DNA of 64,000 nt from Alphaproteobacteria bacterium (GTDB lineage Bacteria > Pseudomonadota > Alphaproteobacteria > UBA6615): contig JBDXCV010000007.1 in the NCBI GenBank assembly GCA_039980135.1, forward strand, positions 124,001-188,000, in the 5' to 3' direction. How positions within the stretch are numbered: the first letter of the stretch is position 1; each line of letters begins with the position of its first letter. Positions 1,008-36,978 of the stretch are shown here, piece after piece. The notes beneath the pieces were generated by a model. The model ran no database searches. It saw nothing but the letters and a program-made list of their open reading frames with translations, and was not told the DNA's origin. The position numbers and the translations under genes are program-made.

Positions 1008-1742
1008 ATGAGCGCCAGCAGCCAATCCGACGAACAGGTGGCCTCGAACGAGGGGCCGGTCGCGGCCGACCCCTATCCCTGGCCCTTCGACGGTGATCTG
1101 CGCCCGGCGAATACCGCATTGCTGATCATCGACATGCAGACCGATTTTTGCGGCGTCGGCGGTTACGTGGATTCCATGGGTTACGACCTGTCGCTCACGC
1201 GCGCGCCGGTCGAGCCCATCTCGCGGGTGCTGTCGGCGATGCGCGGCGCGGGTTTTCATATTCTCCATACCCGCGAGGGCCATCGCCCCGATCTGGCCGA
1301 CCTGCCGGCCAACAAGCAATGGCGTTCGCGCCGCATCGGTGCCGGGATCGGCGATATCGGCCCGTGCGGGCGTGTGCTTGTGCGCGGTGAGCCGGGCTGG
1401 GAAATCATCCCCGAGCTGGCGCCGCTGCCCGAAGAGGCGGTGATCGACAAGCCGGGGAAAGGCTCCTTCTACGCCACCGATCTGGAGCTCATTCTGCACA
1501 CGCGCGGCATTCGCAATATCGTGCTGACGGGGATCACGACAGACGTCTGTGTGCACACGACGATGCGTGACGCGAATGATCGCGGCTTCGAATGCCTGCT
1601 GCTGGAAGATTGTTGCGGCGCGACCGATCGCGGCAATCACGATGCGGCGATCCACATGATCAAGATGCAGGGCGGCGTTTTCGGCGCCGTTTCAAACAGC
1701 ACAGACTATCTGGCCGCGCTTGACCGCGCCGGTCTGGCATGA
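1008..1742 (+). CDS. Cysteine hydrolase, isochorismatase fold, biuret-hydrolase-like
   Basis: Cytosolic amidohydrolase of about 244 residues. The ATG at 1008 is chosen over an upstream start at 945 that lies inside amiF. The catalytic Asp-Lys-Cys set of the isochorismatase-like cysteine hydrolases is visible: Asp42 in LIIDMQTDF, Lys148 in DKPGKGSF and Cys181 in [12 protein letters not shown]. The GYVDSMGYD and [12 protein letters not shown] segments resemble biuret hydrolase (BiuH) and the RutB ureidoacrylate hydrolases, both of which cut a carbamoyl or ureido C-N bond. Placement between a formamidase and an ABC transporter supports a role in nitrogen recovery from small amides or ureides. 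The exact substrate (biuret, ureidoacrylate, other carbamoyl compounds) cannot be told from sequence. Confidence 0.82.
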
Positions 1743-1749
1743 GGGCGGT

Positions 1750-3294
1750 ATGACATCCACGGCGGAAATCGAACGGGAACCGCGCGGCATCGGGGTCGAG
1801 ACCTTCGTGATGACGAAGAAGTTTGGTTCCCTGGTGGCCCTCGACGATGCGTCCATCAAGGTGCGGCCGGGCAGCTTTCATGCGCTTCTCGGAGAGAATG
1901 GCGCCGGCAAGTCGACCCTCGTGAAATGCATCATGGGAGTCTACAAGCCGACGTCCGGCCAGATCATGGTCGATGATCATGAAGTTGAAATCGCGAGCCC
2001 GCGCGACGCCCATGCACTCGGCCTCGGCATGGTCTATCAGCATTTTACGCTGGTGCCCTCGCTGACGGCGGCAGAGAATCTCGTGATAAGCCGCGCCCAT
2101 GTCCCGGCCGTCGTGAACTGGAACGCCGAACATGCAGCGCTCGCCGCGTTTCTCGAGACCACGCCCTTTCAGGTGCCGCTCGATGTGCCGGTTTCGGGCC
2201 TGTCGGCTGGTGAAAAGCAGAAGCTGGAAATCCTCAAGCAGCTCTATCTCAACCAGCGCTTTCTCATTCTCGACGAGCCGACATCGGTCCTGACCCCCGA
2301 CGAGGCCGACGAAATTCTCGGTTTGCTCAAGGGCCTCACGGATTCCGGTGAACTCACGATCCTGATGATCACCCACAAATTTCGCGAGGTCACGGCCTAT
2401 GCCGATGACGTCACGGTTTTGCGCGCCGGCAAGATGGTCGGGTCCCATCGGGTGGCTGATATCACGGTCGAAGATATGAGCCACATGATGATCGGGGATA
2501 CGGAATTGCGCCAGGCCGCGGCGCGCACGCCCACCCCCGAGGACGCACCCGTGGTGCTGGAACTTGTCGATGTGGCAGCGGAGGACGATGAAGGCCTGTC
2601 CGCGCTCCGTGACATCAGCCTTGCGGTGCGAGCCGGCGAGATCGTGGGAATTGCCGGCGTGTCGGGAAACGGGCAATCCGAACTGGTAGAGGTGCTGTCC
2701 GGCCAGCGCGAACTCGGGGGCGGCGCGCTTCGGGTACATGACGAAAACTATTCCCCGATGCGCCAGCAGATGGATGCCTTCAAGGTGTTCGGCCTGTCGG
2801 AAGAACCTCTGCGCAATGTCGCCGTGCCCAATATGACCGTGGCCGAGAACATCGCGTTTCGCTCGTTCGACAAGAACCCGATCGCGTCGGGCGCTGGCTG
2901 GCTCAAACCGAGCCATATGCGCCGGCAGGCACGGGGGTTGATCGCAGACTACCGGGTCAAAACGCCGTCGACGGACGAGCGGATCGAGAATCTGTCAGGC
3001 GGCAACGTGCAGCGCGCGGTGCTGGCGCGAGAACTGTCGGGCGACGTGGATATCCTGATCGTCGCGAACCCGTGCTTCGGCCTCGATTTCGCGAGTGTGG
3101 CCGAGATACGCGCCCAGATCATCGATCAGCGCAATCGCGGCGCGGCGGTGCTTCTGATTTCCGAGGATCTCGATGAAATCCTCGAACTGGCCGACCATGT
3201 GGGCGTCATGCTCGAAGGCGCGATTGAATACACGTCACCCATCGGTGAGACGGATCGCAGGACGATCGGTCACGCGATGGCGGGTGGCGAATGA
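1750..3294 (+). CDS. ABC transporter ATP-binding protein, double-ATPase (nucleoside/sugar type)
   Basis: About 514 residues with two fused ATPase domains, the layout of RbsA/MglA and of the BMP-linked nucleoside importers. Domain 1 has Walker A LLGENGAGKSTLVKC, signature LSAGEKQKLEI and Walker B LILDEPTSVLTPDEAD. Domain 2 is degenerate as usual for the type: its P-loop reads IAGVSGNGQSELVEVL with no Lys-Ser/Thr, while the signature LSGGNVQRAVLARELSG is intact and Walker B reads LIVANPCFGLDF. The ATG at 1750 is preferred over 1720, which overlaps the hydrolase gene. The permease and binding-protein genes are not seen downstream, so they probably lie upstream of the window. Likely supplies the substrate of the neighbouring amidases (inference). 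Confidence 0.88.
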   Translation: MTSTAEIEREPRGIGVETFVMTKKFGSLVALDDASIKVRPGSFHALLGENGAGKSTLVKCIMGVYKPTSGQIMVDDHEVEIASPRDAHALGLGMVYQHFTLVPSLTAAENLVISRAHVPAVVNWNAEHAALAAFLETTPFQVPLDVPVSGLSAGEKQKLEILKQLYLNQRFLILDEPTSVLTPDEADEILGLLKGLTDSGELTILMITHKFREVTAYADDVTVLRAGKMVGSHRVADITVEDMSHMMIGDTELRQAAARTPTPEDAPVVLELVDVAAEDDEGLSALRDISLAVRAGEIVGIAGVSGNGQSELVEVLSGQRELGGGALRVHDENYSPMRQQMDAFKVFGLSEEPLRNVAVPNMTVAENIAFRSFDKNPIASGAGWLKPSHMRRQARGLIADYRVKTPSTDERIENLSGGNVQRAVLARELSGDVDILIVANPCFGLDFASVAEIRAQIIDQRNRGAAVLLISEDLDEILELADHVGVMLEGAIEYTSPIGETDRRTIGHAMAGGE

Positions 3295-4070
3295 ACGGGA
3301 AAAGATCGATGAACGAAAAAGCACGCTGGGCGGGCCGCAACGAGACCAAGGATGAGGTGCGCGGTGCGGTCTGGGATGATCTGGTGGAAACGGGTGTGAA
3401 TGTCGGCCCGTCCCATAGCCGTATTCCGAATTTCGCGGGGGCCGACCTGGCGGCGCTGAACCTGTCGCAAGTTCCTGCCTGGCAGGCGGCACGCATCGTG
3501 AAGTGCAACCCTGATCCCCCGCAAATCCCCGTGCGTTTGCGCGCGCTGTATGAGGGCAAGATTGTCTATGCGCCGATCCCCGAGTTGATCGAGGGTGTGC
3601 CGTTTGTGCGCCTGGACCCGGCTGTGCTCGAAGCCAAGGGTGTCAGCTTCGAACTCGCGGCAACGAGCCAGGGGTTCCAGACCCATGGCGAACTCGTCGA
3701 GTTTGAAGACATGGAGCCGCTCGATTTCGTGGTTGTCGGTTGCGTGGCTGTTACGCGCGCGGGCGGGCGCACTGGCAAGGGCGGCGGGTTCGCCGATCTC
3801 GAGCTGGGCATCTTCCGTGAACTGGGGAAGGTCAGCCCGGACACCGAGATCGCGACGACCGTGCATTCGAGCCAGGTCGTTGATGATTCGCGGGTGTTGA
3901 TGGTGGCCCATGATTCAGCGCTCCACTGGATCGCGACCGAGGCCGGGCTGATCGAGACACGCACCGAATTTCCCCAGCCGACCGGTGTGGCCTGGGACAA
4001 GGTGCAGCCCGATCAGTATCGCGACATTCCGTTCCTTGAAACCTTGCGCGACCGCATCAAGGGCTCTTGA
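3291..4070 (+). CDS. 5-formyltetrahydrofolate cycloligase-like (MTHFS-domain) protein
   Basis: About 259 residues; starts with an ATGA overlap on the ABC ATPase stop, so it is translationally coupled, although the ATG at 3309 could also serve. The late motif GGRTGKGGGFADLELGIF matches the MTHFS/5-FCL signature (normally a GxGxGYYD-like loop), and the Arg-rich segment RIVKCNPDPPQIPVR fits the family's substrate region. It is longer than the roughly 190-residue housekeeping cycloligase and resembles the MTHFSD-like branch, whose reaction is not established. Joining a folate-linked fold to a formamidase operon suggests handling of formyl groups or formate, but that is inference. Last gene of the operon; the next gene is convergent. 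Confidence 0.72.
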   Translation: MNGKRSMNEKARWAGRNETKDEVRGAVWDDLVETGVNVGPSHSRIPNFAGADLAALNLSQVPAWQAARIVKCNPDPPQIPVRLRALYEGKIVYAPIPELIEGVPFVRLDPAVLEAKGVSFELAATSQGFQTHGELVEFEDMEPLDFVVVGCVAVTRAGGRTGKGGGFADLELGIFRELGKVSPDTEIATTVHSSQVVDDSRVLMVAHDSALHWIATEAGLIETRTEFPQPTGVAWDKVQPDQYRDIPFLETLRDRIKGS

Positions 4071-24050: not shown

Positions 24051-25280
24051 CTAGGAATCTGTTCGAGAAATATTGCCGCTGCGTTCGGGCAATCCCGTCA
24101 TCTGATGACAGATGTCCGCCAGCCGCGCGACGCCTTCGCGTATATCCTGATGGGACGGATGCCCGAAACACAGGCGCAGCCGATGGCGGCCGCTATCCGG
24201 GTCCGCCGACCAATCGGCACCGGGATTGATCGCCACGCCCTGTTCGAGCGCACCCGTCGCCAGTTCGCTGGTGTCGACGGCGTCGGGCAGGTTCACCCAG
24301 ATGAATATTCCGCCCTTGGGCTGCGCGTAACTGGCGGTCGTGCCGAACTCACTGTCCAGGGCGTCCATGATGGTCTCGCACTTGGCGCTCAAGACTCCCT
24401 GCAAGGCACCGACATGGCGTTCAAAATGTTCCGTGCAATATTCGGCTATGAGCATCTGTTCGAGCGCACCGGTGCCACCGTCATATTTGACTGCCAGGGC
24501 GTGGGCAATCACGTCGGGTTCCGCAGTGATGAAACCGACACGCAAGGCCGGCGCAATGGTCTTGGAGAACGATCCGCAATAGATCACCATGCCGTTCGTA
24601 TCGAGTGCCCGGATCGCACGGGGCCGTGTGCCGTCGAACGTCAGGTCGGCGTAGCAATCATCTTCGAAGATTGGGACGCCATGAGCGTGTGCGAGAGATA
24701 GCAGCTCCAGGCGGTTTGCCTCGGGCATGACCGAGCCGGAAGGATTCTGCACCGTCGGGATTGTATAGATGTATTTCGGCTTGCGATTCTCTGTATTCAG
24801 ACTGCTCAGGATGTTGGCGAGCGCGTCCATGCGAATCCCGTTTTCATCGAGTGGGGCGCCGATATACTCGACACCAAGACGGCTCAGGCGTTGCAGCGTC
24901 CCTTGGTAGGTAGCCTCTTCGACGATCACCACATCGCCTGGCGACAGAAGTACATCGTTTACCAGATCAAGCGCCTGCAATGACCCGGACACGATAAGAA
25001 TATCGTCGGCCGATTGCCGCATGCCCGTGCGTTCGTGCAGCGAAGTGGCCAAAAACTCGCGCAGCGGTCGATAACCCTGGGGGCCACTGGAGAGACCATA
25101 AGTCGACAGCGTATGACCTTCGCGTTTCAGGACGCTGGCTGCAGACTGTACGAAATCGTCAACTGGGATCGCGTCGGCGTCATTATGTCCGCCGATAAAG
25201 TTGTACTTCGGGAACCCGGTCCAGCGGGGCCTCGTTGCCGGCAGCCCGGATCGGTACAGCGACGCGTAGTCAAATCCCAT
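24051..25280 (-). CDS. PLP-dependent aminotransferase, class I/II (2-aminoadipate type)
   Basis: 409 residues with the fold-type I core found in MocR regulators and LysN/AAT enzymes, but no N-terminal winged helix, so it is an enzyme rather than a MocR regulator. Key segments: SGSLQALDLVNDVLLSPGD (PLP phosphate site), IPTVQNPSGSVMP (Asn), FEDDCYADLTF (Asp to the pyridine N) and CGSFSKTIAPALRVGF with the Schiff-base Lys. Amino donor unknown. It lies behind the molybdenum enzyme gene, 61 bases downstream, and next to an amino acid type transporter. Confidence 0.9.
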   Translation of the reverse strand: MGFDYASLYRSGLPATRPRWTGFPKYNFIGGHNDADAIPVDDFVQSAASVLKREGHTLSTYGLSSGPQGYRPLREFLATSLHERTGMRQSADDILIVSGSLQALDLVNDVLLSPGDVVIVEEATYQGTLQRLSRLGVEYIGAPLDENGIRMDALANILSSLNTENRKPKYIYTIPTVQNPSGSVMPEANRLELLSLAHAHGVPIFEDDCYADLTFDGTRPRAIRALDTNGMVIYCGSFSKTIAPALRVGFITAEPDVIAHALAVKYDGGTGALEQMLIAEYCTEHFERHVGALQGVLSAKCETIMDALDSEFGTTASYAQPKGGIFIWVNLPDAVDTSELATGALEQGVAINPGADWSADPDSGRHRLRLCFGHPSHQDIREGVARLADICHQMTGLPERSGNISRTDS

Positions 25281-25341: not shown

Positions 25342-27681
25342 TTATGCCGCTTTCGGAGATTGCATCAGCTCCCAAATCCGCTCCGGTGTCGCGGGCATGT
25401 CGATATGGGACACATCGTATTCCCGCAGAGCGTTCGCAATTGCGGCGATGACAACCGGCGGGGCGACCAACGCACCGGCTTCGCCGGCCCCTTTCACGCC
25501 CAGTATGTTTGTCTTGCAGGGCACCTCGTTCGTGTCGAGCTCTATCATCGGCAAATCGTCGGCACGCGGCATGGTGTAGTCCATGAATGAACTGGTGATC
25601 ATCTGGCCGTTCTGCGGGTCGTAGAAAGTGTTCTCCATGATCGCCTGTCCGACACCCTGTGCGACCCCGCCATGCACCTGGCCGGCGACGAGCATCGGGT
25701 TGATCACCTTGCCCACATCGTCGATCGCGCAGTAGCGGACGATATCGATGACACCGGTGTCTTCATCGATCTCCAGTTCGCAGATATGGCAGCCATTCGG
25801 ATAGCTCCAATTCTCGATCGTGTGGGTGTCGGTGCCGTTCAGCGCGCCCTGCAATTCCTCGGGAAGGGTGGTGGAGGTGCGGGCATGTCTGGCAACGTCG
25901 AAAAGGGTCACGGCACGGTCCGTACCTGCAACACGGAACTCGCCATCCGTGAACTCGATATCGACGGCTGCGGTCTCAAGCATCTCCGATGCGATCAGGA
26001 TGCCCTTGGAGATGACCTCGTCGCTGGAATTCAGCGCCGCGACACTGCCGATATGGCTGGTTCTGGAGCCATGGCTACCGCCGCCGTCGGGCAGGTTGTC
26101 GCTGTCGCTGGTGTCGATCCGGACCTGCTCGAAATCGATACCGAGTTTCTCGGAGACGAGCTGCATGAATGATGTGTCATGGCCCTGGCCCATTGGCTGG
26201 GTGCCGACCCGAACAATAACCTGATCGTCTCCGACCTCCACTTCGGCGCTTTCCGTCGGGTTGCCGGCTGTCGTCTCCAGATACTGGCTGACCGCGATGC
26301 CGCTGAGTTTGCCTCTTTTGCGGGCATCAGCCCGACGTGTTTCGTGGCTGTCCCAGTCGGCCAGCTTTGCGACAAGGTCCATATTCTCCTCGAACGCGCC
26401 GCTGTCGTAGGTGGTTCCGACGGCGTTGGTATAGGGGAACCGGTCGTTGGAGATCAGGTTGCGTCGCCGGATTTCCAGCGGATCGATGCGGAGATCATGT
26501 GCCGCGACATCCACCAGTCGCTCCATCACATAGATGGCCTCCGGGCGGCCCGCACCGCGATAGGGCCCGACCGGGGCGGTGTTGGTGACGACGCATTTCA
26601 CTTCCACGTCGGCGAGCGGGACGTCATAGACGCTGGTGAGGATCTTCGGCCCGATCTGGGTGGGGACCGAGACGCCGGCCGAACAGGAATAGGCGCCGAT
26701 GTTTGCGACGGTTTTCACACGCACGGCCAGGAATTTTCCATCCTTGTCCAGGGCCAGCTCGCAATCCGAAATGTGATCGCGGCCGTGCAGGTCGCTGAGA
26801 AACGCTTCGGTACGATCGCTGATCCAGCGGACTTTCCGTCCGAGGCGCTTCGCGGCGACGAGCACCAGTACCTGTTCGGGGTAGGGGTGGGTTTTCATGC
26901 CGAACCCGCCGCCAACATCATCGACAAGGACGCGGATTTTCGTCGGCTCGCACTTGAAGAAGGCGCCGGCAAGCCAGCTGCGCAAAAGATGACGATTCTG
27001 GTTCGATGTATAGATGGTGTAGCGCTCGTCATCGGCGTCGTAGCTGCCGATCGCGCCGCGCACTTCCATGGAGTTCTGGACGATGCGCTGATTGACGAGG
27101 CGGACCGACGAGATGTGATCTGCCGCCTCGAAGGCCTTCTCGGTGGCGTCGGCGTCGCCGATCTGGGCCTGGAACAGGAAATTCTTCGGCACATCGTCCC
27201 AGATCTGAACGGCACCGCCGTTCATCGCCGCGTCGGTCTCGACGACGGCGGGAAGGGGGGCATAGTCGACGTCGATTGCTTCCGCCGCGTCGCGCGCCTG
27301 CTCGAGTGTCTCTGCCACGACAAACGCCACGGGGTCGCCCACATATCGCACCCGATCAGATGTCAGGGCATGTTGGGGTGGATAAACCAGAGGCGATCCG
27401 TCGGGCTTGGTCAGCGCGGCGAAGAATGGCGGGGGACCGGGGAACACGCCGATGCCGTCTTCGATGAGGTCCTGGCCGGTCAACACGCCGAGCACCCCGG
27501 GCATCGCCTCGGCTACGGTCTTGTCGATGGAGCGGATATCGGCATGTGCGTGAGGTGAACGGAGGACATAGCTCATGGCCTCGCCGTCACGGGGCAGGTC
27601 ATCATTGAATTTACCGCGGCCCGTCAGAAGTCTTGGGTCTTCGTTGCGCCGCACCGGTTGTCCAACACCGTATTTCGCCAT
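25342..27681 (-). CDS. Xanthine dehydrogenase-family molybdopterin-binding large subunit
   Basis: About 779 residues, the CoxL/XdhB-type Mo-MCD subunit. Start at 27681, with GGGGGGAAGAAA directly upstream; the further 24 residues to 27753 are not homologous. MAKYGVGQPVRRNEDPRLLTG is the standard opening. VGPYRGAGRPEAIYVME is close to the AYRGAGR loop of form II CoxL-like hydroxylases, not the form I CO dehydrogenase loop. GGGFGMKTHPYPE, MGQGHDTSF and VKGAGEAGALVAPP (with the catalytic Glu) are present. The FAD and 2Fe-2S subunits that normally accompany it are missing from this window, so it must recruit partners from elsewhere. Confidence 0.92.
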   Translation of the reverse strand: MAKYGVGQPVRRNEDPRLLTGRGKFNDDLPRDGEAMSYVLRSPHAHADIRSIDKTVAEAMPGVLGVLTGQDLIEDGIGVFPGPPPFFAALTKPDGSPLVYPPQHALTSDRVRYVGDPVAFVVAETLEQARDAAEAIDVDYAPLPAVVETDAAMNGGAVQIWDDVPKNFLFQAQIGDADATEKAFEAADHISSVRLVNQRIVQNSMEVRGAIGSYDADDERYTIYTSNQNRHLLRSWLAGAFFKCEPTKIRVLVDDVGGGFGMKTHPYPEQVLVLVAAKRLGRKVRWISDRTEAFLSDLHGRDHISDCELALDKDGKFLAVRVKTVANIGAYSCSAGVSVPTQIGPKILTSVYDVPLADVEVKCVVTNTAPVGPYRGAGRPEAIYVMERLVDVAAHDLRIDPLEIRRRNLISNDRFPYTNAVGTTYDSGAFEENMDLVAKLADWDSHETRRADARKRGKLSGIAVSQYLETTAGNPTESAEVEVGDDQVIVRVGTQPMGQGHDTSFMQLVSEKLGIDFEQVRIDTSDSDNLPDGGGSHGSRTSHIGSVAALNSSDEVISKGILIASEMLETAAVDIEFTDGEFRVAGTDRAVTLFDVARHARTSTTLPEELQGALNGTDTHTIENWSYPNGCHICELEIDEDTGVIDIVRYCAIDDVGKVINPMLVAGQVHGGVAQGVGQAIMENTFYDPQNGQMITSSFMDYTMPRADDLPMIELDTNEVPCKTNILGVKGAGEAGALVAPPVVIAAIANALREYDVSHIDMPATPERIWELMQSPKAA

Positions 27682-27800
27682 TTTCTTCCCCCCTGCCTGT
27701 ATTCTCTTATTCCGGATATTATGAAACGAACGGGCCGGTTGCGCGACATTCAATGTGCGATGAACGGTCGAATTAGTGGCTCTTGGTGGGAGAATTTACC

Positions 27801-28748: not shown

Positions 28749-29053
28749 TTCGCCGCGACGTTTGTGTTGTTGGCTGGCCCGTCAGGGGTCGGGACATCCA
28801 TGGGTTTGCAGAGTCCCTGCGCGCCAGTTTATGCAAACCGGTCCAACACTTTTGTATTGTTGGTTCAGTTCCCCGAAACGACCGGAATGGCCGTGAAACG
28901 GGTCCCGGGCGGATTTTAGGCGGTCTTCTGGTGGTTTTTCACGTTCAGATGGTGTCGCTGGAAGGTTCAGGCGCCTAACATTTGTGACGCGCCGGCAGTT
29001 GTGAAATGGCGAGTCGCGTTGTTAGTTGGGCCGAACAATGCAGGAGAATTGGC
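28749..29053. promoter_or_regulatory. Intergenic region with clustered direct and inverted repeats before the XRE-cupin regulator
   Basis: 305 bases without a gene. TTTGTGTTGTTGGCT (28761-28775) recurs as TTTGTATTGTTGGTT (28851-28865). GGTTTGCA (28803-28810) pairs with TGCAAACC (28832-28839) over 21 bases. CCAACA (28843-28848) pairs with TGTTGG (28858-28863), and TTGTT (29019-29023) with AACAA (29034-29038). This looks like a multi-site operator, most simply for the regulator encoded just downstream. Confidence 0.6.
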
Positions 29054-29707
29054 ATGGACGATTTGCGGACCGAAAGCGGATCGATCAACGGACTGACTCT
29101 GGGTACCAAGGTGCGGGCGCTCCGCAAAGCGCAAGGCAATACCCTGGCCGAAGTCTCGCAAGCCACCGGATTGTCGATCTCCGCCTTGTCCAAAATCGAG
29201 AACGATCAGGTCTCGCCGACATTTACGAACCTGATGCGCCTGGCCGAAGGCCTGCGGATATCACTCGGCGATCTGGTGACGCTGAAGCAAGACGAGGGCA
29301 ATGTTTCTGCGCGCATGACCGTCAGCCGCCAGTTGGATACGGTTTTCCGCTCGACCCCGAAATACGATATGTACGCCCTCTGCTCGGAACTGCGGCGAAA
29401 GCGCATGACGCCGCTGATCGAACGGGTCAAGGCCGATGAGCCCAGCCCGCTCGATGGCATGGTGTCTCATTCCGGCGAAGAATTTTTCTATGTACTGAAT
29501 GGTGCCATCGAAGTGCACACCGAGCATTACAGCCCGGTTCGCCTGGAGAAAGGCGATAGCGCCTATCTCGACAGCACGATGGCCCACACCCTGGTCGCGA
29601 TGGACGGCAAGGATGCCGACATCCTCATGGTGTGGCTCGGCCCGTCCCCGGTTGGCTCGGAAGACGGGGCGTCGATGGCCGAGGCAATCCTGAACCACGA
29701 TTGCTGA
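29054..29707 (+). CDS. XRE-family transcriptional regulator with C-terminal cupin
   Basis: 217 residues. The ATG at 29054 has AGGAGA 7 bases upstream; an earlier start is less likely. Residues about 18-72 form a phage-repressor-type helix-turn-helix (VRALRKAQGNTLAEVSQAT, then LSISALSKIENDQVSPTFTNL). The second half is a cupin (VSHSGEEFFYVLNGAIEVH and LEKGDSAYLDSTMAHTLVAMD) that would sense a small ligand. This arrangement occurs in PuuR and SutR-like regulators of amine or amino acid use. Probably autoregulates through the repeats upstream and controls nearby catabolic genes (inference). Confidence 0.9.
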   Translation: MDDLRTESGSINGLTLGTKVRALRKAQGNTLAEVSQATGLSISALSKIENDQVSPTFTNLMRLAEGLRISLGDLVTLKQDEGNVSARMTVSRQLDTVFRSTPKYDMYALCSELRRKRMTPLIERVKADEPSPLDGMVSHSGEEFFYVLNGAIEVHTEHYSPVRLEKGDSAYLDSTMAHTLVAMDGKDADILMVWLGPSPVGSEDGASMAEAILNHDC

Positions 29708-29742
29708 TCGACGACATCACTCCGGGCTTTTGGAGGAATTCC

Positions 29743-30531
29743 ATGGAAGTGCGTCATCTGGACGCGGTGAATGCCGATGTCATTCAGGTCGGTGATGGCC
29801 CTGATCTCCTGCTGATCCACTCGCTGCTGGCCGAGCGCACGGCTTTCGACAGGGCGTTGCCGGAACTGGCGGTCGGACACCGGGTCACGATACCGAATTT
29901 GCCCGGCTACGGTGCAACGCCGCCGCTGGAACATTCGAATCCTGACGTGCGTGCGTTCGCCGACTACCTCGCTGAAATCATGGATGCGGCCGGTCTTCCG
30001 GAAGATACGTCCGTCCTCGGGAACGGGGCAGGGGGGTTCATCAGTGTGGCGCTGGGTATTCATCATGGCGACCGTATCGGCAAACTGATCCTCGCCGACA
30101 CGGGGCCCGGTTTTCCCGATGCGGCGAAAAAACCACTGCACATACTGGCGGAAATGGTGGAAGCGAACGGTATGGACGCGGTCCTTGATGCGGCGATCCT
30201 GCGCATGTTCCCGCAGCCTTTCATCGAAGCCAATCCCGAGGTGATTGCCGAACGCAAGGCCGCGCTCGCGGCGGCAGATCCGATGGCGTTCGCGACGCTG
30301 GCAAGTGCGTTGGCACAAGTCGAAATGGCCGAAGAGATCGGCGGCATTGCGAACGAGACGATGGTGATGGTCGGATTGGATGACGCCACGACGCCGCCGG
30401 CCATGTCCTATGCGTTGAAACGGGGCATTCCCGGGGCAATATTGGTCGAGATTCCCGATTGCGGACATTGCCCGCAAATTCAGGCCAGGGACATATTCGT
30501 GAACGCTGTACTCGAGTTCATCGACGGCTAG
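29743..30531 (+). CDS. Alpha/beta-hydrolase-fold protein lacking the nucleophile
   Basis: 262 residues; the ATG at 29743 follows TGGAGGA. The fold is plain: DLLLIHSLLAERTAFDRALPE (oxyanion loop region), IPNLPGYGATPP, and a C-terminal IPDCGHCPQIQ that keeps the catalytic His. The nucleophile elbow, normally G-x-S-x-G, reads VLGNGAGGFIS: Gly95 (codon GGG at 30025-30027) stands where Ser belongs. A hydrolytic mechanism is therefore unlikely unless another residue takes over. Possible roles are a lyase, a cofactor-free dioxygenase-like enzyme or a binding protein. It is 35 bases after the regulator gene and probably shares its transcript. Confidence 0.85.
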   Translation: MEVRHLDAVNADVIQVGDGPDLLLIHSLLAERTAFDRALPELAVGHRVTIPNLPGYGATPPLEHSNPDVRAFADYLAEIMDAAGLPEDTSVLGNGAGGFISVALGIHHGDRIGKLILADTGPGFPDAAKKPLHILAEMVEANGMDAVLDAAILRMFPQPFIEANPEVIAERKAALAAADPMAFATLASALAQVEMAEEIGGIANETMVMVGLDDATTPPAMSYALKRGIPGAILVEIPDCGHCPQIQARDIFVNAVLEFIDG

Positions 30532-30547
30532 ATCGGAACATGGGGTG

Positions 30548-31177
30548 TCAGCCGTTCCTGGCACCCGCCATGCGGACCGCAAGGTCGCTATATTGATCCG
30601 CGAGATTTTCGACGGACAACGCCCCCTCGTTGCGAAACCAGTAAACCGCGAAATCGACGATTCCGATGATCGCGAACGCGGTTGTGGTGACGTTGTCGAA
30701 TACGAAGGTTCCGTCTTTTTCGCCCGCGATCAGGATGCCACGAAGCCGGTCCAGAAAGTCGCGTTGCATCTGGGTCAGCATGCGACGGCGCGCCGCCGGG
30801 AGCCCGCCAATAAGCTGGTCGACATTGTAGAGGCCCGCGTTCAGCATTGGCATGATATCCGCGTTGCCGACATCATGCTGGACATGCGCCCGGACAAAGC
30901 CGCGCAACTGTTCGAGCGGCGCGGCTCCCGCCGCGGCGACCATATCGGCAGACATCCGGTTCAGCTGGACCAGCGTATTCTCCAGCGTGGCGAACAGAAT
31001 CTCGTCTTTTGAATCGAAATGATAGTACAGCGCCGGGGCGCTGATCCCGATCGCACCGGCGATCGCCTCGAGGCTGGTTCGCTCATACCCGCGCGTTGCA
31101 AACAGTGTGGCCGCCTCGTGAATAATCGACGCTTTGGTCTCACTGGCGTTTCGCGAACGCTTTCGTGCCTGGGCCAT
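30548..31177 (-). CDS. TetR-family transcriptional regulator
   Basis: 209 residues. The N-terminal DNA-binding domain is clear: IHEAATLFATRGYERTSLEAIAGAIGISAPALYYHFDSKDEIL-type residues 19-60, with the helix-turn-helix around residue 38-57. The C-terminal ligand domain is all-helical and unmatched. Divergent from hyuA; the 150-base interval holds a palindrome of the length TetR dimers bind. Likely represses the hyuA operon and its own gene until an inducer, perhaps an acyl-CoA or the operon's substrate, binds (inference). Confidence 0.92.
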   Translation of the reverse strand: MAQARKRSRNASETKASIIHEAATLFATRGYERTSLEAIAGAIGISAPALYYHFDSKDEILFATLENTLVQLNRMSADMVAAAGAAPLEQLRGFVRAHVQHDVGNADIMPMLNAGLYNVDQLIGGLPAARRRMLTQMQRDFLDRLRGILIAGEKDGTFVFDNVTTTAFAIIGIVDFAVYWFRNEGALSVENLADQYSDLAVRMAGARNG

Positions 31178-31226: not shown

Positions 31227-31330
31227 ACTTGGTTGCGCGGCAAACCGCCTGTTAATCTGGCACTCTAATTCGGGCGTCCCAAGGTGCCGGGCGCTTGCGC
31301 AAAACATTGGCGCCGGGGATGAGGAATACG

Positions 31331-33415
31331 ATGCGGTTTGCTGTCGATACGGGCGGTACGTTCACCGACCTGATTGTGGAAGATGATGACAATGGCCTTC
31401 ATATGTACAAGGCCTCGACCACGCCGGGCGATCCGATCAACGGTGTGCTGGACAGTCTGAAACTTGCCGCCGACGACTTCGGTCTCGGCCTGGACGCGCT
31501 CCTGGCAAAAGGCGAGCTGTTCATTCACGGCACGACCCATGCGATCAACGCGATCGTGACCGGGAATACCGCCAAAACCGCGTTCCTGACCACCGAGGGG
31601 CATCGCGATATCCTCGTCTTCCGCGAGGGCGGGCGGATGGAGCCGTTCAACTTTACGGTTCCCTATCCGCAGCCCTACCTGCCGCGCGCGCTTTCCTATG
31701 AGGTACCGGGTCGGATTCTCTCGGATGCGTCTGAAATGGCACCCCTCGACGAAGGCCGGGTGGTGGAAATCCTCGAAGACCTCAAGGCGAAGGAGGTCGA
31801 GGCGGTCGCGGTCTGCCTCCTCTGGTCGATCATCAATTCAAGCCACGAGGACCGGGTGGGTGAACTGATCGAGCAACACCTGCCGGGCGTTCCCTATACG
31901 TTGTCTCATATTCTCAACCCGTCCCTGCGCGAATACCGACGTGCGTCATCGGCGGCGATCGACGCCTCGCTGAAGCCGTTGATGAGTGCGTACATGCACA
32001 ACCTGACGGGGCGCTTGTCCGATGCAGGTTTCGGGGGGCGCGTCCTGATCGTCACGTCCCAGGGCGGCATGATGGACGCGGTGGATGTCGCCGAGCATCC
32101 GATACATCTGATCAATTCCGGGCCGTCCATGGCGCCCGTGTCCGGGCGCTACTTCGCCCGTGAGGATGAAGGTTCCGATACCGCGGTGATCGCCGATACG
32201 GGCGGCACGACCTATGACGTCAGTCTCGTGCGCCGCGGGCGGATTCCCTGGACGCGCGAAACCTGGATCGGCCAACCCTATCGCGGCCATATGACAGGCT
32301 TCCCGTCGGTCGATGTAAAATCAATCGGCGCCGGTGGTGGCTCCATCGCCTGGGTCGATGACGGTGGCATGCTGCATGTCGGGCCGCAGAGCGCTGGCGC
32401 GGTGCCGGGGCCGTCCTGCTACGGACAGGGGGGCGACAAACCGACCGTGACCGATGCGTCTCTAGTGCTCGGTTATCTCGACCCGGAATTTTTTCTGGGT
32501 GGATCTATGGCCCTCGACCTCGAGGCCGCCAACAGCGCGATCAAGCGCGACGTTGCGGACCCCATGGGAATCGGGCTCGAGGATGCCGCCGCGGCCATCA
32601 TCGCGATCGCGACCGAGAATATGGTTCAGGCAATCGTCGATATCACCGTCAATCAGGGGATCGATCCCCGTGACGCGATCTTGATCGGCGGCGGCGGCGC
32701 GGCCGGATTGAACTCGACGGCAATCGGGCGACGTCTCGGCAGCGAACGTGTGGTGATCCCCGAGGTGGGTGCCGCGCTGAGTGCGGCGGGCGCGATGATG
32801 TCCGACCTGCATTCGCAATACACGCGGACATTCTTTGCAACATCGGAGAATTTCGATGCTGCGGGGGTGAATCAGATTCTTGATGGGCTCGAGGCCCGCT
32901 GCAACGCGTTCATCGATGGTCCGGGTGCCGGTTCGATCAGCCAGACGATCGAGTTCTTTGCCGAGGCGCGCTACCCCGAACAGGTGTGGGAAATCGAGGT
33001 GCCGCTGGCCGCCCGCCGGTTCGAAAGTGACGCCGATATCGACGCGCTCGTCGAGGAGTTCCACAAGGTTCACGAGGATATTTTCGCTATCAACGATCCG
33101 GAATCGAGCATCGAAGTCGTGGGCTGGACCGCGTCGGTGAAATGCCTGCTGAATGAAAGCGAGAGCGGTTCCCTGGCGGCGGCAGAAACGACCGCGTCAG
33201 TGGATGGGACGCGCAAGGTTTATTTCGCGGAGACAGGCTATGTGGATGCGACGGTCCGCAGGTTCGAGGCGATGAAGACCGGTGAAGTGCTGCCGGGCCC
33301 GGCGATCATCGAATCGCCATTCACGACGGTGGTGGTGGACCCCGGGGCAACGGCGGAACGGCGCGGATCGGGAAGCGTCTCGATTGTGCCCGGCTCTGCA
33401 CCGGCGGCGGCATAG
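31331..33415 (+). CDS. hyuA: Hydantoinase/oxoprolinase subunit A (HyuA)
   Basis: About 694 residues. The ATG at 31331 is chosen because GAGGAA precedes it by 4 bases and it opens the ATP-binding fold MRFAVDTGGTFTDLIVED; upstream ATG/TTG codons lack a site. A second nucleotide motif IADTGGTTYDVSLV, the glycine-rich AILIGGGGAAGLN and the PGPSCYGQGG loop are all typical. HyuA proteins use ATP to phosphorylate or carboxylate a carbonyl or amide and act with HyuB: hydantoinase, 5-oxoprolinase, acetone and acetophenone carboxylases. Head of a six-gene operon. Confidence 0.93.
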   Translation: MRFAVDTGGTFTDLIVEDDDNGLHMYKASTTPGDPINGVLDSLKLAADDFGLGLDALLAKGELFIHGTTHAINAIVTGNTAKTAFLTTEGHRDILVFREGGRMEPFNFTVPYPQPYLPRALSYEVPGRILSDASEMAPLDEGRVVEILEDLKAKEVEAVAVCLLWSIINSSHEDRVGELIEQHLPGVPYTLSHILNPSLREYRRASSAAIDASLKPLMSAYMHNLTGRLSDAGFGGRVLIVTSQGGMMDAVDVAEHPIHLINSGPSMAPVSGRYFAREDEGSDTAVIADTGGTTYDVSLVRRGRIPWTRETWIGQPYRGHMTGFPSVDVKSIGAGGGSIAWVDDGGMLHVGPQSAGAVPGPSCYGQGGDKPTVTDASLVLGYLDPEFFLGGSMALDLEAANSAIKRDVADPMGIGLEDAAAAIIAIATENMVQAIVDITVNQGIDPRDAILIGGGGAAGLNSTAIGRRLGSERVVIPEVGAALSAAGAMMSDLHSQYTRTFFATSENFDAAGVNQILDGLEARCNAFIDGPGAGSISQTIEFFAEARYPEQVWEIEVPLAARRFESDADIDALVEEFHKVHEDIFAINDPESSIEVVGWTASVKCLLNESESGSLAAAETTASVDGTRKVYFAETGYVDATVRRFEAMKTGEVLPGPAIIESPFTTVVVDPGATAERRGSGSVSIVPGSAPAAA

Positions 33416-33427
33416 GAGGGCGGACCG

Positions 33428-35191
33428 ATGGCTGAGAAAATTGACGGCGTAAAACTCGCGCTCCTGTCCAACCGGCTCGAAGGTATCTCGCGCAAGATGG
33501 GCAACACGTTGATGCGCACAGGCCGGTCCGGCGTGCTCAATATTGCGCGCGACTTCTCCTGCTGCATCCTGACGGCCAACGACCAGCTCGCGGCCGTGGC
33601 CGAGAGCCTGCCGATTCACGTTCTGTCCGGTCCGGACATGATGGCCGCCACGATGAAGGAATATCATCCGGTGCTGAAACGCGGCGACGCGTTCCTGCAC
33701 AACTCGCCCTACCACGGATGTTCCCATCCGGCGGATCATACGATCCTGGTGCCGGTGATCGACGACGATGGTATCCATCGCTACACCATGGCGGCGAAGG
33801 CCCATCAGGCCGATATCGGCAACTCGATCCCGACGACCTATCACGGCACCGCGCGCGATGTTTACGAGGAAGGCGCGTTGATCTTTCCGGCGGTGAAGGT
33901 GCAGGAAAACTACGAACACAACATGGATATTGTGCGGATGTGCCGTCTGCGGATCCGGGTGCCGGACCAGTGGTGGGGTGACTATCTGGCGATGATGGGC
34001 GCGGCGCGCATTGGTGAACGAGAACTGCTCGCATTGGGCCGGGAGGTCGGCTGGGACACGCTCGAGGCGTTCAATGAGCAATGGTTCGACTACTCGGAAG
34101 AACGCATGGTTGGGGCCATCCGCCAATTGCCGGCGGGCGCCGCCACGCGCACGTCGACCCATGACGCGATTCCCGGAACACCCGAAGAGGGGATCATGAT
34201 CACCAGCAAGGTGACGATCGATCCGGACGGCGGCGAGGTGACTGTTGACCTGATGGACAACCCCGATGCCCAGCCATGCGGACTCAATTTGTCCGAGGCC
34301 TGCGCGCGGACGGCGGCAATGGTGGGCGTGTTCAATTCGATCGACCACTCGGTGCCGAAGAATGCGGGCTCGTTCCGGCGCATCAAGGTGCTGCTGCGCG
34401 AGGATTCCGTTTGTGGCATTCCGAAACACCCGACCTCCTGTTCGGCCGCGACCACCAACATCGCCGACCGGGTCGCCAATCCGACCCAGGCCGCGATAGC
34501 GGAGATCGCGGAAGGGTTCGGGCTGGCCGAGTGCGGCGCGATCATCCCGCCCGCGGTCGGCGTGGTATCTGGAATCGATGAGGAGCGGGGGGAACCCTTT
34601 GTGAACCAGGTATTCCTCGGGCTGACGGGTGGCGCGGGCGCGCCCGAGGCCGACTGCTGGCAGTCGATCTGCCATGTGGGCAATGGGGGACTTTGTTATC
34701 AGGATTCCATCGAACTCGACGAGTTGCGCCAGCCGATTTTCGTCAAGACACGGACCTTCGCGCCCGATACGGAAGGTGCGGGCCAGTACTGCGGGGCCCG
34801 TTCCGCCTATACGGAGTTCGGCCCTCGTGTCGGCAATCTCGATGTTGCCTATGTCAGCGATGGCGGGATCAATGGACCCAAAGGGGTCCGCGGGGGGCTC
34901 GGCGGGTCGGTGTCGGGTCAATACAAGATCACCCGAAATAACGAGCGTGAAGACCTTCCGAATTGTGCGGTTGTGACCCTCGTCGCCGGGGAGTTGATCA
35001 GTTCCCAGTCTTGCGGCGGTGGCGGCTACGGCGCGCCGACGGATCGCGACCCCGAGATGGTCGCACGCGATGTGGTCGAGCAATATGTATCGGCCGAGCG
35101 CGCACGCAGTGTGTATGGCGTCGTCGTGGATACCGACGGTACCGTAGATACAGCCGCGACGACGAAACTTCGCGCGGAAATGACCGCCTGA
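33428..35191 (+). CDS. hyuB: Hydantoinase/oxoprolinase subunit B (HyuB), copy 1
   Basis: 587 residues, with GGAGGG upstream of its ATG. Typical HyuB features: KMGNTLMRTGRSGVLNIARD, FLHNSPYHGCSHPADH (His and Asp metal ligands), QADIGNSIPTTYHGTARDVYEEG and GVRGGLGGSVSGQYK near the end. It partners HyuA in the ATP-dependent reaction. Its stop codon overlaps the start of copy 2 (TGATG). It is strikingly similar to copy 2, so the pair arose by tandem duplication. Confidence 0.92.
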   Translation: MAEKIDGVKLALLSNRLEGISRKMGNTLMRTGRSGVLNIARDFSCCILTANDQLAAVAESLPIHVLSGPDMMAATMKEYHPVLKRGDAFLHNSPYHGCSHPADHTILVPVIDDDGIHRYTMAAKAHQADIGNSIPTTYHGTARDVYEEGALIFPAVKVQENYEHNMDIVRMCRLRIRVPDQWWGDYLAMMGAARIGERELLALGREVGWDTLEAFNEQWFDYSEERMVGAIRQLPAGAATRTSTHDAIPGTPEEGIMITSKVTIDPDGGEVTVDLMDNPDAQPCGLNLSEACARTAAMVGVFNSIDHSVPKNAGSFRRIKVLLREDSVCGIPKHPTSCSAATTNIADRVANPTQAAIAEIAEGFGLAECGAIIPPAVGVVSGIDEERGEPFVNQVFLGLTGGAGAPEADCWQSICHVGNGGLCYQDSIELDELRQPIFVKTRTFAPDTEGAGQYCGARSAYTEFGPRVGNLDVAYVSDGGINGPKGVRGGLGGSVSGQYKITRNNEREDLPNCAVVTLVAGELISSQSCGGGGYGAPTDRDPEMVARDVVEQYVSAERARSVYGVVVDTDGTVDTAATTKLRAEMTA

Positions 35192-36978
35192 TGCCTGAAG
35201 CCGAAGAAGATGCGGTAACGGGCGCATTCGACGGCGTTCAGCTCGCCCTCCTGTCGAATCGGCTCGATGGCATCGTCAAGAAGATGGCCAACACGTTGCT
35301 GCGCACCGGCCGTTCCGGTGTGCTCAACATGGCGAGGGATTTCTCTTGCTGCATCGTGACGGCGAACCATGAGTTGCTCACGGCGACCGAAAGCCTGCCG
35401 ATACATGTGCTGTCCGGCCCGGACATCATGGCGCGCTGGATGTGCGAGGTGCACCCCGATCTCAGGCGTGGTGACGCCTTCCTGCACAACTCGCCCTATC
35501 ATGGCTGTTCGCATCCGGCGGATCACACGATCCTGGTGCCGGTCCTCGACGGCGCCGGGGGGCATCGGTTTACGCTCGTGGCGAAGGCCCATCAGGCAGA
35601 TATCGGCAATTCGATTCCGACCACCTATCACGCCCGCGCCCGCGATGTTTACGAGGAGGGCGCGCTGATTTTCCCCGCGGTCAAGATTCAGCGTGACTAT
35701 CAGAATATCGATGACATCGTGCGCATGTGCCAGATGCGCATTCGCGTACCCGGGCAATGGTGGGGTGACTACCTCGCCATGGTCGGTGCGGCACGCATCG
35801 GTGAGCGTGAACTGATCGCGCTGGGTGAGGATATCGGGTGGGACAGGCTCGATGCCTTTGCCGAGCAGTTCTTCGACTATTCCGAGGCGCGTATGGTGAC
35901 GGCACTACGCGAGCTTCCGGCCGGCACCGCATCCCATTCCAGCACCCATGACCCGATACCGGGTACGCCAGAGGAAGGGGTCAGGATCAACGTAACCGTC
36001 GCCGTCGATCCCGAGGAGGCCCGCGTGCGGGTCGACCTGCGCGACAATCCCGACGCGATGCCGTGTGGGCTCAACCTGTCCGAGGGTTGCTCGCGGACGG
36101 CCGCGATGGTCGGCGTGTTCAATTCGATCGATCATACGGTACCGAAGAATGCCGGCGCGTTCCGGCGCATCGATGTGGATCTGCGCGAGGATTGCATCGT
36201 CGGTATCCCCAGACATCCCACAAGCTGTTCGGCGGCGACCACGAACGTTGCCGACCGAGTATCAAATTCGGTCCAGGCATCGATGGCCAAGATTTCGGAA
36301 GATATCGGACTTGCCGAATGTGGTGCCTCGAGCCCGCCGGCCGCAGCCGTGGTATCGGGGGTAAACCCCGAAACCGGCAAGCCATATATCAATCAGGTGT
36401 TCCTGGGGCGCACGAACGGGGCGGCGAGCGCGCATACGGACGCCTGGTGGACCATTGGCCATGTCGGCAATGCCGGCATGTGCTTCCTCGATTCCGTCGA
36501 GCTCGACGAGTTGCGGCTGCCGATTTACGTCCATTCCCGGGGTTTCGTCCCCGATACCGAAGGTGCGGGGCGAAATTGCGGTGCGCCTCAGGGGTTTGCG
36601 GTCTATGGCCCGCGGGTCGGGAGCATGTCCCTGGTTTATAATTCCGACGGCACGATCAATGGTCCGAAGGGTGTGCGTGGCGGTCTTGGGGCGGCCACGG
36701 CGGCCCAGCACAAGCTGACAGTCAACGGACAGGAAGAGGAGGTGCCGCGCGTTGGCCAGGTTTCCCTAGATGCCGGAGAGCTGATTGTGTCGCGATCTTG
36801 CGGCGGGGGCGGGTTCGGACCGCCCGGCGAGCGCGATCCGGAACGTGTGCTTTATCAGCTGGCAGAAGGCTTCATCAGCCGCGATCGCGCGCGCGATGTG
36901 TATGGCGTTGTGGTGAGTGAGGACGGCGTCTTGTTGGCCAAGGAAACGGACGATCTGAGGGCGGAGGCAACATCATGA
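35191..36978 (+). CDS. hyuB: Hydantoinase/oxoprolinase subunit B (HyuB), copy 2
   Basis: 595 residues from the ATG that shares a base with the previous stop codon. Same signatures as copy 1: KMANTLLRTGRSGVLNMARD, FLHNSPYHGCSHPADH and QADIGNSIPTTYHARARDVY. Both copies keep all visible metal-ligand motifs, so neither looks degenerate. Two B subunits with one A subunit suggest a heteromeric enzyme, as in acetophenone carboxylase, or alternative partners for different substrates (inference). It overlaps the serine hydrolase gene by ATGA. Confidence 0.92.
   Translation: MPEAEEDAVTGAFDGVQLALLSNRLDGIVKKMANTLLRTGRSGVLNMARDFSCCIVTANHELLTATESLPIHVLSGPDIMARWMCEVHPDLRRGDAFLHNSPYHGCSHPADHTILVPVLDGAGGHRFTLVAKAHQADIGNSIPTTYHARARDVYEEGALIFPAVKIQRDYQNIDDIVRMCQMRIRVPGQWWGDYLAMVGAARIGERELIALGEDIGWDRLDAFAEQFFDYSEARMVTALRELPAGTASHSSTHDPIPGTPEEGVRINVTVAVDPEEARVRVDLRDNPDAMPCGLNLSEGCSRTAAMVGVFNSIDHTVPKNAGAFRRIDVDLREDCIVGIPRHPTSCSAATTNVADRVSNSVQASMAKISEDIGLAECGASSPPAAAVVSGVNPETGKPYINQVFLGRTNGAASAHTDAWWTIGHVGNAGMCFLDSVELDELRLPIYVHSRGFVPDTEGAGRNCGAPQGFAVYGPRVGSMSLVYNSDGTINGPKGVRGGLGAATAAQHKLTVNGQEEEVPRVGQVSLDAGELIVSRSCGGGGFGPPGERDPERVLYQLAEGFISRDRARDVYGVVVSEDGVLLAKETDDLRAEATS

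Follow-up and report, generated by a model that had tools for sequence, protein, structure and literature searches.

A clade of PcaD-like alpha/beta-hydrolase-fold proteins in which glycine occupies the position of the nucleophile serine

Proteins of the alpha/beta-hydrolase fold are mostly annotated as serine hydrolases by default, and members of the fold that lack the nucleophile Ser are already known, AqdC, RutD and DPP10 among them. In the cofactor-free dioxygenases HOD and AqdC, the His-Asp pair alone deprotonates the substrate, the nucleophile is dispensable, and Ala takes its place in some natural members (PMC10548524). RutD of Escherichia coli (E. coli), encoded in the rut operon and putatively assigned as an aminoacrylate hydrolase, has yet to be shown active, and growth on uridine did not require it (PMC8113886). 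DPP10 has Gly at the nucleophile position, keeps the His and the Asp, and is inactive (PMC4350108). The clade described here, in which Gly is fixed at the same position, was previously unnamed: our literature search on its elbow motif and on natural Ser-to-Gly members in bacteria found nothing on it, and annotation pipelines label its members 'alpha/beta hydrolase'. With its fixed Gly and an otherwise fixed active site, the clade offers a natural experiment on the transition of the fold from covalent to non-covalent catalysis.

The gene in question (29743..30531, + strand) lies within a stretch of alphaproteobacterial DNA of 64,000 nucleotides that was analysed as a whole (the window, hereafter). 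It starts with ATG at 29743, preceded by a Shine-Dalgarno-like GGAGG that we read from the sequence at 29732..29736, and encodes a PcaD-like protein of 262 aa (the Gly protein, hereafter). The elbow, G-N-G-A-G within VLGNGAGGF (residues 91-99), has Asn94 (AAC, 30022-30024) followed by Gly95 (GGG, 30025-30027; the pair at 30022..30027), the latter replacing the nucleophile Ser. The His loop CGHCPQIQ is encoded at 30460-30483 and includes His242 (CAT, 30466..30468) at the catalytic-histidine position, while Asp214 (30382..30384) occupies the canonical acid position and Asp119 (30097..30099) lies just after strand 6 (residues 114-118 in the model described below). Two arginines, Arg154 (30202..30204) and Arg171 (30253..30255), lie in the helical cap, and the oxyanion-loop region carries the motif H26-S/T27-L-L-x-x-R32 (29818..29838), which is distinctive of the clade. 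The protein matched Pfam Abhydrolase_1 and Abhydrolase_6 and, weakly, Ndr; its best NCBIfam equivalog was PcaD (TIGR02427), at 122.3 bits below the cut-off of 255.85, and the scores for RutD (TIGR03611; 68.4 bits, cut-off 238.5) and for the meta-cleavage families HsaD (49 bits, cut-off 400) and BphD (36 bits, cut-off 462) were all below cut-off as well.

Searches of genomes at the genus, family, order, class and phylum levels, of GTDB contigs and of plasmids provided 29 distinct homologues (window included) of 31-84% identity, from Alpha- and Betaproteobacteria, a Myxococcota MAG, and plasmids of Methylobacterium and Sinorhizobium. The first-pass annotation, made from the window alone, had read a Gly in place of Ser in the elbow and an intact His loop, and had proposed that Ser in close relatives would speak against the former. 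Both readings extend far beyond the window, since Gly occupies the same column in 29/29 homologues, down to 31% identity, a consistency that greatly exceeds chance, and His242 is invariant (29/29) as are Asp214 and Asn94, with Asp119 and Cys240 each present in 28/29. The elbow of the clade is G-N-G-x-G-G or a near form of it (A-N-G-F-G-G, G-N-G-F-G-A), and residue 95 is encoded by all four Gly codons (GGC in 14 homologues, GGT in 7, GGG in 6 and GGA in 2). Further, dN/dS was 0.03-0.2 for 11 homologue pairs, i.e., the gene is under purifying selection. Because Gly is clade-wide, its codons are mixed and dN/dS is low, we do not view it as a recent inactivation or an error. That is, the chance that a sequencing error, a misread elbow or a recent inactivating mutation underlies the Gly is practically negligible: no point in favor of such an artefact was found, and independent assemblies agree on the Gly using different codons for it.

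In a tree of 51 rows, built with PcaD-type outgroups added and the longest rows removed, the Gly-bearing rows formed one side of a single branch (support 98/91; 98% of the bootstrap trees); an earlier tree without the PcaD outgroups had shown weak support for the clade (36) because of long branches. Ser-bearing PcaD-type enol-lactonases stand beside the clade in the tree, and matches outside the clade, which are at most about 31% identical and include paralogues from the same genomes, have Ser in every row for which the elbow was read. The nearest Ser-bearing row, E. coli MhpC, is placed on a very long branch (3.9), and thus its closeness is not to be trusted. These sequences show that Gly replaced the nucleophile once, in the ancestor of this proteobacterial and myxococcal clade, and has been retained since then. 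Compared to 18 PcaD-type rows, the clade has fixed Asn94 (L/V in the latter), Gly95 (Ser), Leu29 (Gly/Ala), Phe35 (Trp), Pro54 (Arg) and Cys240 (Ala), as well as Arg32, Arg171 (mostly hydrophobic or aromatic in the PcaD-type rows) and Phe183, and it has in common with them Asp214, His242, Gly143, Gly211 and Arg154, the last being invariant in the clade and present in 17/18 of the PcaD-type rows. In sum, the clade has kept the acid-base pair of the PcaD site together with one of its cap arginines, has gained a second cap arginine, and has lost the nucleophile; with pocket residues fixed despite the loss of the nucleophile, the pattern is unlike that of a decaying site.

An AF2 model of the window protein, built from a 14-sequence alignment, was confident (pLDDT 91.9, pTM 0.91) and revealed an alpha/beta-hydrolase fold with a PcaD-shaped helical cap. 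Its top VIA-align match was PcaD, an enol-lactonase from Burkholderia (2xua; Z 37.9, with 252 residues superposed at 1.5 A), and RutD (3v48) was matched with Z 33.7; HOD and AqdC were absent among the structural matches listed for the model, which is evidence neither for nor against a relationship. The elbow has the expected geometry, a beta strand (90-94) followed by a helix (96-111), and profile alignments set G95 on the nucleophile Ser of PcaD and TtEst, which excludes that the elbow had been misread. We also considered a shifted elbow with Asn94 as the nucleophile and rejected it, since it agrees neither with how the protein aligns to relatives that have Ser nor with where the strand gives way to the helix in the model.

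Alternatively, the nucleophile might have been displaced, with Cys240 of the C-G-H loop or Ser/Thr27 of the oxyanion loop forming the covalent intermediate. Such a displacement would be consistent with Cys240 being nearly invariant in the clade where most PcaD-type rows have Ala, and with the exclusive presence of Ser or Thr at residue 27 among the rows that include it. However, one homologue (L058) has Leu at position 240, the Ser-bearing E. coli MhpC also has D-C-G-H, and Cys240, which shares a loop with the His and precedes it by two residues, is unlikely to be positioned for in-line attack. Ser27, for its part, is a regular element of the (N/H)S(L/I) motif typical of PcaD, and hence is not a replacement nucleophile. 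Overall, we regard a displaced nucleophile as improbable.

The genes around the Gly gene provide evidence of a different kind. Immediately upstream is a gene for an XRE-cupin regulator (HTH_3 + Cupin_2; 29006..29707, +), 35 nt away on the same strand and with no terminator-like site in between, so the shared transcript suggested by the first-pass annotation is plausible as far as the sequence goes. The same annotation had further suggested that the Gly protein may be a receptor-like or non-hydrolytic partner of this regulator, and had proposed examining whether homologues also follow XRE-cupin genes. The two genes are indeed adjacent in genera g1-g3 of the window's family, and this is the evidence for a receptor-like or co-regulator partnership. 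In genus g10 (L047, L049, L050), however, a divergent ABC-transporter operon is found in place of the regulator, and no XRE-cupin orthologue was detected at E<=1e-30 anywhere in the three genomes (G021-G023, 95-100% complete), all of which keep the Gly gene and HyuA/HyuB; a constant partnership was rejected on these grounds. Outside the family, there was no XRE orthologue beside the homologues other than an XRE-cupin-like gene of 23% identity close to the copy in Methylobacterium; the regulators at these loci are different ones, chiefly GntR, which stands beside most of the distant members. In addition, the known receptor-like members of the fold (RsbQ, D14/KAI2) use a complete Ser-His-Asp triad for ligand handling, whereas the Gly protein has no Ser. 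Therefore, while a receptor-like role as such is possible, with nothing pointing to it, we find it very improbable that the Gly protein serves the XRE-cupin regulator as a receptor-like partner or co-regulator; the regulator is best described as a neighbor.

Downstream, and beyond a convergent TetR-type regulator gene (30548..31177, -), the window encodes a HyuA/CapA-like ATP-dependent lactamase or carboxylase subunit (31295..33415, +) and two HyuB/CapB-like subunits (33428..35191, + and 35200..36978, +). HyuA-HyuB-HyuB is found downstream of the Gly gene throughout the window's family wherever the flank is covered, with the caprolactamase CapA/CapB as the nearest named relatives (566, 248 and 238 bits, vs. 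cut-offs of 1000). No conserved aldehyde dehydrogenase was detected in the family at E<=1e-140 (24 genomes, no positive control); the module is thus a different one in this family, although a diverged enzyme may be present.

Several other features of these neighborhoods were also observed. The two tandem HyuB/CapB-like genes after a single HyuA/CapA-like gene are an arrangement kept in relatives, and the convergent TetR gene is present at the same junction in L013, L014, L018 and L024 and missing from L016, L019 and L053. A second alpha/beta hydrolase, with Ser (GRSMGG), is encoded at 11696-12496 of L054 and at the ends of L013 and L018; in these relatives, it lies past the PotA-like ATPase gene belonging to the divergent transporter operon, an operon that does not adjoin the Gly gene in the window. 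Farther upstream, the window encodes an aminotransferase-fold protein resembling the C-terminal part of MocR/PdxR and without the DNA-binding N-terminus (24051-25280, -), and a lone molybdenum-hydroxylase large subunit of the CO dehydrogenase/glyceraldehyde dehydrogenase alpha type (25342-27753, -), with no medium or small subunit genes among its immediate neighbors.

In loci outside the window's family, an aldehyde dehydrogenase gene adjoins the Gly gene in nine cases (L022, L026, L042, L043, L052, L082, L083, L084, L085); most of these enzymes are 67-83% identical between loci, and they match betaine-aldehyde or semialdehyde dehydrogenases only loosely, with scores below all cut-offs. A GntR regulator is next to or near the Gly gene in L026, L042, L043, L051, L052 and L082-L085 (L022 has the aldehyde dehydrogenase but no GntR), and Liv-type transport genes are near it in L021, L022, L025, L026, L051 and L085. 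The combination of GntR and aldehyde dehydrogenase of high mutual identity beside the Gly gene (L026, L042, L043, L052, L082-L085) is a candidate uncharacterised catabolic module, spanning alpha-, other proteobacterial and myxococcal genomes. Two of these loci (L052, L083) also hold an MFS transporter and a guanine-deaminase-type amidohydrolase, and L051 has, near its homologue, tandem opine-dehydrogenase-like genes (1164-3395; 68% identical) and SsuA-like binding proteins. No pca genes were found in the flanks examined. The constant theme of the Gly-gene loci is small-molecule catabolism (HyuA/HyuB in the window) rather than any one regulator.

This gene content also bears on whether the Gly protein is an enzyme at all. 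It is possible that it is a non-catalytic pseudoenzyme, that is, a metabolite-binding or complex-forming accessory of catabolic enzymes (e.g., HyuA/HyuB) that uses the pocket for binding only. DPP10, with its elbow GKGYGG, provides a precedent for an inactive Ser-to-Gly protein with the His and Asp kept; HyuA is a consistent neighbor of the Gly gene within the window's family; and most members of the clade also match Pfam Ndr, to our knowledge a hydrolase-fold family without enzyme activity. The conservation of the His-Asp pair and the low dN/dS of the clade would also fit a binding protein. However, the flanks of homologues from outside the window's family showed no HyuA/HyuB, which means that there is no constant protein partner, and His242, Asp214, Arg154 and Arg171 are invariant over deep divergence; we consider the pseudoenzyme unlikely.

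With the dyad and the cap arginines fixed and the gene linked to catabolic functions, we judge nucleophile-free catalysis to be likelier than either a binding-only pseudoenzyme or a displaced nucleophile, and we favor, with reasonable but limited confidence, the hypothesis that the Gly protein is a PcaD-derived catabolic enzyme that employs a His-Asp dyad, but no covalent nucleophile, to act on a small anionic substrate. It would probably carry out a degradation step while dispensing with the covalent chemistry typical of the fold. Under this hypothesis, a PcaD-type catabolic enzyme would have lost its covalent nucleophile once, leaving His242 and Asp214 to serve as a dyad in the role of general base/acid; the oxyanion pocket, left open by the absence of the Ser side chain and flanked by Asn94, would accommodate the substrate's carbonyl or enolate; and cap residues Arg154 and Arg171 would hold the substrate carboxylate(s), a role that is likely for Arg154. 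The chemistry would then be water addition to, or tautomerisation or cleavage of, an intrinsically reactive intermediate (candidates include an enol-lactone, an enamine, a carbamate, or a beta-keto compound), and the product, e.g., a semialdehyde, would be passed to the next enzyme, namely the linked aldehyde dehydrogenase in other clades or part of the HyuA/HyuB/SDR operon in the window. The conserved aldehyde dehydrogenase neighbor narrows the class of product, suggesting an aldehyde. The pathways linked to the gene vary from clade to clade, so its products need not all catalyse the same reaction. More tentatively, and with considerable doubt on our part, the clade as a whole might have swapped covalent hydrolysis for nucleophile-free His-Asp chemistry, in which case it would represent a new lyase, tautomerase or cofactor-free oxygenase with Asn-Gly as its hallmark, in a catabolic route common to Alpha- and Betaproteobacteria and Myxococcota.

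Among known systems, PcaD (3-oxoadipate enol-lactonase) resembles the Gly protein in fold, in the positions of His and Asp, in Arg154 and in the oxyanion-loop motif (N/H)S(L/I), but all 18 PcaD-type rows have the Ser nucleophile, and Asn94, Arg32, Arg171, Leu29 and Cys240 are distinctive of the Gly clade. RutD shares the fold, the natural loss of the nucleophile, the kept His and a location in a catabolic operon (for an N-heterocycle in its case); its elbow, G-H-A-L-G, has Ala at the nucleophile position instead of Gly, and it is placed far from the clade in the tree. HOD and AqdC have an acid just after strand 6, where the Gly clade has Asp119, and a His corresponding to His242, but bear Ala or Ser at the nucleophile, and no sequence match of the Gly protein to them was seen. 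The meta-cleavage C-C hydrolases (MhpC, BphD, CumD) share the fold, the Asn before the nucleophile (GNSMGG vs. GNGxGG) and the D-C-G-H loop, while the Ser of GNSxGG is absent from the Gly clade; this likeness, which is based on motifs and one long-branched row, may represent convergence. Finally, DPP10 has the same substitution but is a eukaryotic two-domain membrane protein that serves as an inactive channel modulator.
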